From: Natronosalvus caseinilyticus
GTDB taxonomy: Archaea; Halobacteriota; Halobacteria; Halobacteriales; Natrialbaceae
DNA length: 64,000 nucleotides
Direction of reading: 5' to 3'
NCBI RefSeq assembly: GCF_017357105.1
Contig: NZ_CP071596.1
Span: 186,001 to 250,000 of the forward strand
A program made the translations under genes and the position numbers. Under the pieces are notes generated by a model. That model did not search any database, was not told the origin of the DNA, and worked only from the letters and a program-made list of their open reading frames with translations. The first letter of the stretch is position 1. Each line of letters begins with the position of its first letter. Positions 49,644 to 53,093 of the stretch are shown here, in pieces.

Positions 49644-50444
49644 ATGCCAGTCGAGCGACTCTACCGGCTGAACACGGCGAGGTGGACCTTCGACAACAGC
49701 GCCGCGACCCAGCTCCAGAACCCCGGCGAACCCTACGTGGGCTGGTGTCCGTGCTACCTGCTCGAGCACTCCGACGGACTCGCCCTGTTCGATACGGGCG
49801 TGAGCCACGAGATGGCGACGGCGCCGCTCGAGTACGGCCCGGCGGGAGCGCCCCACATGGCCGAGTTCGCCGAGACGATCGACCTCTCGGAGGGGAAGCC
49901 GCCGGTCGAACACCTCGACGACCTGGGTTACGAGCCAGGGGACGTCGACACGGTCGTGCTCTCACACCTCCACACCGACCACGCCGGCAACCTCGATTCG
50001 TTCCCCGAGGCGACCGTCGTCGTCCGGAAGGAGGAACTGCGCTACGCGTTCTGGCCTGACGGCCCCCAGCGGCTGTTCTACCTCGAGGGAGACTTCCGCC
50101 ACCTCCGGGAACTCGACGCGGACGTCGTCGCGATTACGGGCGAGTACGACGTCTTTGGCGACGGCTCGGCCGTCGCCTTCCCGACACCCGGACACACGCC
50201 GGGCCACCAGTCCCTCGAGGTGGACCTCGCCTCGGGGACGACAATCCTCGCGGCCGATGCAGCGAACAGCCGCGCGGGCTACGAGCAGGAACTGGCGGCC
50301 TCGTTCGCGTGGTCGCTCGAGGCGTCGGTCGACTCGATCGCCGCGATAAAGGATCGCGCTCGCGTCGCGGACGCGGACGTCATCGTTCACCACGATCCCG
50401 AGGAGCAGCGGCGCCTTCCGGACCCGCCGAACGCGCTCGAGTGA
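49644..50444 (+). CDS. Metallo-beta-lactamase-fold hydrolase, AHL-lactonase-like
   Basis: 266 residues. GLALFDTGVSHEMA, then VVLSHLHTDHAGNLDSFPEA (two-metal ligands HxHxDH), PTPGHTPGHQSLEVD, TILAADAANS, IVHHDPEEQRRLPDPP. This is the N-acyl-homoserine lactonase subgroup of the fold. Substrate in haloarchaea is unknown; a lactone is plausible. Confidence 0.88.
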   Translation: MPVERLYRLNTARWTFDNSAATQLQNPGEPYVGWCPCYLLEHSDGLALFDTGVSHEMATAPLEYGPAGAPHMAEFAETIDLSEGKPPVEHLDDLGYEPGDVDTVVLSHLHTDHAGNLDSFPEATVVVRKEELRYAFWPDGPQRLFYLEGDFRHLRELDADVVAITGEYDVFGDGSAVAFPTPGHTPGHQSLEVDLASGTTILAADAANSRAGYEQELAASFAWSLEASVDSIAAIKDRARVADADVIVHHDPEEQRRLPDPPNALE

Positions 50445-50542
50445 GTCTCGTGTCCGATGAATACACGAACTGATGCATGGGTACGTTTATGGGCTTGTCA
50501 CACGCTACTACTGCCCATAGCACCCGCCACCACGGAGACTGA

Positions 50543-50566
50543 CACCGACGAGTCGCTCCGTCGGTG
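50543..50566. terminator. Inverted repeat between MBL and the terpene-synthase-like gene
   Basis: CACCGACG pairs perfectly with CGTCGGTG across an eight-base loop, about 100 bp after the MBL stop. Terminator or regulatory hairpin. Confidence 0.35.
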
Positions 50567-50610
50567 ACGGCTCAGACCGAAAAACGTCCTCGGCGTACCG
50601 ACTCTATATC

Positions 50611-51597
50611 ATGACCACACGGAACACGGACCTCACCGACGCGACCCACATCGAGCGGATCGAGGAGACGGCCCTTCCCGCGTCCGTTTCGACCCTCCTC
50701 GAGACCTACGAGGAAATCGTCGACGAACGGGATCGGTTCCTCTGGAAGTGGCTCTACTACCTCTTTCCGGAGATTACCCTCTCGTGTGTTCACCCCGACG
50801 ACGGCCAGCAGGTCCGAGAGGGCAAGCTGCTCGCGTCGCTGTACGTCACCATCCTCGACGACCTCGCGGAACGCGACGAGGACGTACACACGTTTCGGGA
50901 GGCCGCGAAAGCGCCGTTCGACCACCAGACAGCCGACGAGACGCATCCGGAGGTCGACGCGGCGACCGTCGCACTCGCCCACGAGGTCTGGGAGCGCGTA
51001 GACGAAAGCCTCGAGTCAGCACCCCGTTATGCGGAATTTAGCGACCTGCTCCGGTTCGACCTCGGCCGGACGAACACCGCGATCGAGTACACCTACCTGC
51101 TGAACCACCACCTCGAGCTGGCGTCCCTCGAGGAAACCGCCATTTACGACAGTCACAACATGATGCTGTTTCCTTACGCCACCATCGACCTGCTGTACTC
51201 GCCGGCGTTCGACCGTTCCGAACTCGGACGGCTGCGGGACGTACTCAGACGCGCCCAGCAGATGACCCGAATCGGCAACTGGGTCACCACGTGGGAGCGC
51301 GAACTCGAGGAGGGAGACTGCAGTTCCGGCGTCGTCGTCTCCGCCGTAGAACGGGACGTCGTTTCGCGCGAGCAACTGGAGCGCTTGCGAGCCGACCCCG
51401 CGACCGCCGACCGGGACGAAATCGTCGCGCGAATCCACGAGGCGAATATCGAAGACCGATTACTCGAACGGTGGTCGGAGCACTACGATCACGTCGAGGG
51501 GTACGCCGCCGACATCGAGAGCGTCGACGTCGAAGCGCTTCTCGAGGGACTCGAGACGGTGCTCGCGTGCCATCTGGAAAGCCGAGGGCGAAAATGA
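50611..51597 (+). CDS. Class I terpene synthase-like protein
   Basis: 328 residues, the size of a single-domain class I terpene synthase. Residues 79-91 read VTILDDLAERDED, an Asp-rich metal site at the usual place (Asp83, Asp84, Glu87). Residues 220-231 read RIGNWVTTWERE, matching the NSE/DTE triad N-x-x-x-T-x-x-x-E (Asn223, Thr227, Glu231) at the usual distance. SHNMMLFPYATIDLLYS lies between them, and ERWSEHYD near the end could give the C-terminal RY. It would cyclise or ionise a prenyl diphosphate with Mg2+. The family call is from motifs; the product is unknown. Followed after 81 bp by an HTH regulator. Confidence 0.7.
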   Translation: MTTRNTDLTDATHIERIEETALPASVSTLLETYEEIVDERDRFLWKWLYYLFPEITLSCVHPDDGQQVREGKLLASLYVTILDDLAERDEDVHTFREAAKAPFDHQTADETHPEVDAATVALAHEVWERVDESLESAPRYAEFSDLLRFDLGRTNTAIEYTYLLNHHLELASLEETAIYDSHNMMLFPYATIDLLYSPAFDRSELGRLRDVLRRAQQMTRIGNWVTTWERELEEGDCSSGVVVSAVERDVVSREQLERLRADPATADRDEIVARIHEANIEDRLLERWSEHYDHVEGYAADIESVDVEALLEGLETVLACHLESRGRK

Positions 51598-51678
51598 AGG
51601 GACGTGTGAAAACGGCCCGACTCGCCACGACCAGGGGCAGCCGACCGCACGAACGCCCCACTTCGGTGGTGATGGGAC

Positions 51679-52470
51679 GTGACTGACCGAGAGCGAACCG
51701 ATCGAGAACCCCGCTCGAACGGAGATTTCGTGCAGGAGGTGATGACCCGATCCGAGCTGCTGGAACTGCTGGCCGATCGGCCGCGGACGGCTCGTGAACT
51801 GGCCGATCAGCTCGAGATGGCCCGGTCGACCGTCCACCGGGCGGCCGATACGCTCGAGGCGCACGGGCTGGTCGAGAAACCCGCCGACCGCTTCGAGAGC
51901 ACGGGCCTCGGCGACGTCGTCGCCGACGAACTCCGCACGTTTCGAACGAACCTCGAGGGCGCGCGACGGCTCGAGCCGTTCCTGAACACGATCGACGACT
52001 CGGCGCCGGCGGTCCCGGTCGAGCACTTCACTGACGCGACCGTGACCTGTTCGCGCCACCGACAGGCACACGTCGGCGTCAAGCGCATCACCGATCTCAT
52101 CGAAGAAACGGACTCCCTCCGGATGTTCTCGAGCATCATCTCGCCGCTCTACGTCGACGTGGCCCGACGGGAAATCCTCGACGGCATGGAAATCGAGGTG
52201 ATCTTCGACCAGCAGATCATCGAGATCATCCTCGAGCAACACGTCGAGGAGGCGATGGAGGCGTTCGAAACCGGCCGGTTCGAGGTTTACGTCGCCGAAA
52301 ACGTCCCGTTCGAGCTCTTTCTCTTCGACGAGCGGGTGGGCCTGGCCGCGCACGACGAGTCGGGCATCGCCCGCGCGTTCGTCGAGACGACCGATTCCGG
52401 GGCGCGATCGTGGGCCGAATCGCTCTACGCGGAGTACGCGGCGGACACGGACGCGTTTCGGCTGGAGTGA
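51679..52470 (+). CDS. Winged-helix regulator with C-terminal sensor (FilR1-like)
   Basis: 263 residues from GTG at 51679. TARELADQLEMARSTVHRAA then DTLEAHGLVEKPADRFESTG is the DNA-binding part. The rest (VTCSRHRQAHVGVKRITDLI, LRMFSSIISPLYVDVARREI, FEVYVAENVPFELFLFDERV) is the DUF1724/FilR1-like domain common in haloarchaeal regulators. It may regulate the preceding terpene-synthase-like gene. Its start is unusual but no ATG in frame fits better. Confidence 0.85.
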   Translation: MTDRERTDREPRSNGDFVQEVMTRSELLELLADRPRTARELADQLEMARSTVHRAADTLEAHGLVEKPADRFESTGLGDVVADELRTFRTNLEGARRLEPFLNTIDDSAPAVPVEHFTDATVTCSRHRQAHVGVKRITDLIEETDSLRMFSSIISPLYVDVARREILDGMEIEVIFDQQIIEIILEQHVEEAMEAFETGRFEVYVAENVPFELFLFDERVGLAAHDESGIARAFVETTDSGARSWAESLYAEYAADTDAFRLE

Positions 52471-52802: not shown

Positions 52803-53093
52803 ATGACCAGTATGGACCGTAATCTCGATACCGTGACACGGAATACCCCCACGGACGCGCACGAATTTCGACTTGACGACGATCGCGAAACGACGGTGTC
52901 GATCGCCGAGGCCATGGCGACGATTCGAGGCTGTTCGTCGACCGATCTGCGACCGCTCTACCACGACGTCGATCCGACCCTGCTCGAACGCGTCGGCTCC
53001 CGGTCGAGTCGGCAGTCGTTTCACTTCGTCAGCAACGGATTCGACGTCACCGTCCACGGCACCGGTACGGTTCGAATCGAGTCCCTCGAGTGA
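52803..53093 (+). CDS. HalOD1-domain protein
   Basis: 96 residues from ATG at 52803. TVSIAEAMATIRGCSSTDLR, PLYHDVDPTLLERVGSRSSR, FHFVSNGFDVTVHGTGTVRI is the haloarchaeal output domain HalOD1, found in many stand-alone copies in this class. Function unknown, probably signalling. Confidence 0.85.
   Translation: MTSMDRNLDTVTRNTPTDAHEFRLDDDRETTVSIAEAMATIRGCSSTDLRPLYHDVDPTLLERVGSRSSRQSFHFVSNGFDVTVHGTGTVRIESLE

Follow-up and report, generated by a model that had tools for sequence, protein, structure and literature searches.

To our knowledge, isoprenoid lipids and carotenoids are familiar archaeal products, but cyclised terpenes hardly so. The sequence-only reading of the locus described here had called terpene cyclases seldom described in Archaea, which is right as long as it is not taken as never: Samusevich et al. 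describe terpene synthases from Archaea in a preprint (doi 10.1101/2024.01.29.577750), which is cited by MARTS-DB (PMC12797696) and by PMC13235557, the latter stating that bacterial and archaeal enzymes were characterised in yeast. The enzymes of the preprint may belong to the same family as the protein described here. "Terpene clusters" have been reported in Halomicroarcula (PMC8600319), and our literature search turned up no publication describing a terpene synthase family of Archaea. Described enzymes with which the locus can be compared are the bacterial synthases matching Pfam family PF19086, including epi-isozizaene, selinadiene, and T-muurolol synthases, and Sat1646 (PDB 7e4n/7e4o), a class I pimarane-type diterpene synthase of actinomycetes and the only solved structure found by sequence.

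The gene under study lies in a 64,000-nucleotide window of the genome of Natronosalvus caseinilyticus (NZ_CP071596.1, positions 186,001 to 250,000; positions below are those of the window). As judged from its metal-binding motifs and predicted fold, it very probably encodes a Mg2+-dependent class I terpene synthase (Table 1). The open reading frame starts with ATG; 81 bp separate its end from a downstream gene for a helix-turn-helix (HTH) regulator, which starts with GTG. The synthase-like gene is present in a single copy in the genome, and purifying selection acts on it (dN/dS of 0.28 and 0.20 versus two congeners). Its orthologue was annotated as "hypothetical protein" in six plasmid records (NCBI), and no NCBIfam family model matched any of 42 family members. 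The intergenic region ahead of the gene (50440-50610), which includes a TTTATG element some 120 bp before the synthase start, was well conserved when the window was compared with two congeners. A perfect 8-bp inverted repeat, CACCGACG...CGTCGGTG (50543-50566), was located some 45 bp before this start; it was imperfect in one congener (L044), and may be an operator or a chance occurrence.

Table 1. Features of the synthase-like locus of Natronosalvus caseinilyticus.
Feature	Position in window	Strand	Length or residues	Basis or remarks
Class I terpene synthase-like gene	50611..51597	+	328 aa	ORF, AF2 model, fold matches, family alignment
Aspartate-rich metal motif DDLAE	50857..50871	+	residues 83-87	at end of helix 62-88
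NSE-type metal motif NWVTTWERE	51277..51303	+	residues 223-231	at end of helix 202-233
HTH transcriptional regulator gene	51679..52470	+	263 aa	HVO_A0261-type N-terminal domain and FilR1_middle domain; PF25213 (E=1.4e-18), PF08350 (E=7.7e-33)
HalOD1 output-domain protein gene (small, stand-alone)	52803..53093	+	96 aa	PF18545 (E=5.1e-14); start codon from sequence

Both metal-binding motifs were found where they had first been noted, with VTILDDLAERDED at residues 79-91 and RIGNWVTTWERE at residues 220-231 of the ORF translation, and the metal residues assigned to them (D83, D84, and E87; N223, T227, and E231) were confirmed and proved near-invariant in a 78-member family. In the family alignment, D83 was kept in 75/78, D84 in 78/78, and D/E87 in 77/78 members, most haloarchaea having E at the third position of the aspartate-rich motif, and methanogens and bacteria having D. 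For the NSE motif, N223, R/K230, and E231 were each kept in 77 of the 78 members and T/S227 in all of them; W228 and D193 were also invariant, and R40, W47, and D236 were conserved in 75-77 members. Since this near-invariance persists in a family whose bacterial members have an identity as low as about 24%, the motifs are not due to chance. The residue following the NSE asparagine was W in the window protein, where textbook sites usually have Asp. The window protein thus departs from the strict consensus, (N,D)D(L,I,V)x(S,T)xxxE (PMC7192455), by having W in place of D, and retains the metal triad (N,D)xxx(S,T)xxxE. Only one clearly degraded copy was seen among the 78 members (L175), in which both metal motifs were gone. 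This copy and L174, both from methanogen family f15, were degraded or fragmentary, and other f15 genomes had split copies and stops, suggesting that the gene is being lost in this family.

Structure prediction followed by a Foldseek search, proposed earlier as a check, yielded a class I helical bundle in which both motifs end helices as in the class, where they lie on helices D and H; by the fold match, the two motifs would face each other. The AF2 model, built from a 42-sequence alignment, was all helical (pLDDT 92, pTM 0.91). The best 50 entries retrieved by VIA-align were terpene synthases (one title was uninformative), with Z of 20.3-21.9 and rmsd of 3.0-3.9 over 255-291 residues, which is well above a Z of about 13; for matches under that level, the tool cautions that helical bundles may have no more than a general arrangement in common. 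Sat1646 (7e4n) gave Z 21.5 and rmsd 3.0 over 255 residues, and the bacterial PF19086 synthases (Z of about 20-21) shared the fold, both metal motifs, and a similar length. Foldseek E-values were modest, with VenA as the top match (E=3.3e-4) and Sat1646 at TMt 0.65. By sequence, phmmer matched Sat1646 (E=2.6e-4) and aligned the NSE-type motif position for position (N223, T227, and E231 to N, S, and D), although identity was about 15-18%, Sat1646 is bacterial, and its motif reads NDxxSxxxD where the window protein has NWxxTxxxE. Since no PDB chain was found at E<=1 with the profile of our alignment A1, the tie to solved enzymes is structural, together with this one weak phmmer match. In a search of a viral library, the best match was a terpenoid synthase of Orpheovirus (E=0.05).

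FPP synthases and isoprenoid synthases were also among the Foldseek matches at similar E-values, the former as expected from the common fold superfamily. Such matches, and the established occurrence of such enzymes in haloarchaea, would also fit a prenyl-transferring or coupling enzyme of this superfamily, that is, a trans-isoprenyl diphosphate synthase or a squalene/phytoene synthase-like protein. Prenyl synthases, however, carry two DDxxD motifs, and here a second DDxxD was absent: the window protein has NxxxTxxxE at the second site, and all but a few of the 78 members have Nxxx(T/S)xxxE there. The best VIA-align entries likewise argue against a prenyl enzyme, as do the Pfam matches of family members: these fell on Terpene_syn_C_2 and Terpene_synth_C, with no polyprenyl synthase or squalene/phytoene synthase model among the matches listed. 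We regard a prenyl enzyme as very unlikely, and a class I terpene synthase as the reading to be preferred.

The window protein itself scored 20.1 bits (E=5.9e-4) against PF19086 (Terpene_syn_C_2), below the Pfam cut-off of 23.7 bits. Matches of the family to this model were weak yet repeated (34 of 42 members, best E=2.3e-8), and relatives in five genomes exceeded the cut-off, over profile positions 3-180. With the same number of genomes searched, PF19086 at E<=1e-5 recovered 5 genomes versus 39 with alignment A1, so that the family is under-reported by Pfam. In contrast to the bacterial PF19086 synthases, W follows the NSE asparagine here, and W228, W47, and R40 are near-invariant.

Relatives were detected by protein search in 86 of 292 Halobacteria genomes (about 30%), representing 35 of 77 genera. 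The phylum-wide search with alignment A1 added methanogen-like genomes (three other families), with whole-protein matches at E 1e-102 to 1e-24. Five Methanosarcina-type genomes (G597, G424, G580, G562, and G595) harbored members (L164-L168) with DDxxD and NxxxTxxxE. One of these proteins (L164), scanned in detail, had no terpene synthase match in Pfam; its model, built on a 14-sequence alignment that included other family members, reached pLDDT 89 and matched terpene synthases first (Sat1646, Z 23.2, rmsd 2.6 over 257 residues). In addition, two bacterial MAG contigs, assigned to Candidatus Anammoxibacter (L013) and Chloroflexaceae (L014), encoded relatives with 24-25% identity. One of these contigs was only 3.6 kb, and within Chloroflexota a relative was present in only 1 of 301 genomes; the bacterial members could reflect transfer or binning error. 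A quick tree, computed from 76 rows and rooted on the Methanosarcina-type group, placed the 64 haloarchaeal sequences together (SH-aLRT 93), with one methanogen group beside them and then the two bacterial sequences, but the deep branching order is unsure because long branches meet in this tree. At one locus (L084, G262:C14:19406-21698), two synthase copies were found side by side in tandem.

The order synthase, HTH (HVO_A0261/FilR1_middle type), and HalOD1 on one strand was found at ten loci (the window, L044-L048, L050, L051, L054, and L074) spanning three families (f1, f2, and f6), supporting a conserved module in the clade of the window protein. The HalOD1 gene, third in this order, is preceded in the window by a gap of 332 bp and is probably transcribed separately. 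In Halorussus halophilus, a 4 bp overlap of the synthase and HTH genes suggests co-transcription. HTH genes of the HVO_A0261/FilR1 type lay within 1.5 kb of the synthase at 13 of 61 loci versus 0 of 640 control windows, and HalOD1 genes within the same distance at 15 loci versus 3.9% of control windows; in other clades, Bat-like PAS/GAF/HTH_10 regulators were found within 3 kb at 17 loci (controls, 3.8%) and PAS histidine kinases at 18 (controls, 9.0%), and any of the four kinds lay within 1 kb at 30 of the 61 loci (controls, 8.4%), all these contrasts being biased upward since the profiles were built largely from synthase neighbours, related loci are non-independent, and the controls come from 20 regions at round coordinates. 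Adjacency of the HTH gene was not universal, other lineages having Bat-like or PAS-kinase genes in its place. The HTH and Bat labels required three changes each on the tree, so the association is mostly inherited within clades. We read these regulators as a recurrent regulatory context of the synthase, not as proof of control.

As for tailoring enzymes, no recurrent P450 or prenyltransferase neighbours were seen around the synthase loci. A block of genes for MBL-fold, DUF655, Rpb4, and L21e proteins recurred near the synthase in one clade, but looks like conserved chromosomal context. On a plasmid of Halobellus limi (NZ_CP031312.1, 3072-9268; L072), a synthase relative adjoins genes for a Bat-like regulator, a SAM-dependent methyltransferase, and a prenyltransferase/squalene oxidase repeat protein, and this region is a possible small terpenoid cluster.

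A pyrophosphate-sensor Arg located about 45 residues before the NSE motif and a C-terminal RY pair, both of which contact pyrophosphate in textbook enzymes, are common, though not universal, in bacterial enzymes. At the positions that we take to be equivalent, from the numbering of aristolochene and selinadiene synthases (about 178 and 319-320), the window protein has Ile and A319-C320; R178 was present in 24/77 members and RY in 10/78, and 8 members had both at those columns. Thus, unlike in the bacterial PF19086 synthases, these elements are patchy in the family and missing here, and catalytic activity of the window protein is not assured. They are not class-defining; their absence lowers the certainty of activity and is compatible with class I membership. 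Together with the several kinds of regulators adjoining the gene, the lack of both elements in the window protein and most members would also suit a class I fold protein whose catalysis was lost or altered in this clade, such as a prenyl diphosphate-binding sensor working with the adjacent regulators. A non-catalytic role, however, would not need the six metal ligands and R230, which are kept under purifying selection, and in the phmmer alignment the solved diterpene synthase Sat1646 also appears without an obvious sensor Arg. Loss of catalysis is therefore considered improbable, and a class I terpene synthase is retained as the preferred reading.

Haloarchaea make both FPP and GGPP. From the conserved motifs and the predicted fold of the family, we infer an all-helical enzyme that would bind three Mg2+ via D83/D84/E87 and N223/T227/E231. 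The Mg2+ ions and R230 would serve to detach the diphosphate group of a linear isoprenyl substrate (FPP or GGPP), and the resulting carbocation would then cyclise or be quenched, giving a terpene hydrocarbon or alcohol. Given the conserved order with the HTH regulator and HalOD1 in the window's clade, expression of the synthase is probably conditional, as far as synteny indicates. Since no P450 or prenyltransferase neighbours were seen to recur, the terpene that the enzyme would release may already be the final product. A broader reading, which we put forward tentatively and hold to be rather doubtful, is that Halobacteriota including Methanosarcina possess a widespread synthase family producing a conditional terpene under lineage-swapped sensors (HTH/FilR1-type, Bat-like PAS-GAF, PAS kinases, and HalOD1), which would form an archaeal terpenoid system, for signalling or as a source of stress metabolites, in which pyrophosphate recognition is altered.

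As archaeal terpene synthases have been reported before, the present gene adds to an established type of enzyme and is not entirely new. As far as checked, what is new is the breadth of the family, the linkage to regulators, and a Methanosarcina-type branch that shares the fold and lacks a Pfam match. A "hypothetical protein" in about 30% of sampled haloarchaeal genomes would thereby become a gene whose part in terpenoid biosynthesis can be tested. The fold and metal sites recur in Methanosarcina-type methanogens, a group with available genetic tools. If halophiles and methanogens do have a regulated single-gene terpene trait, one would have to ask what use Archaea make of such compounds.
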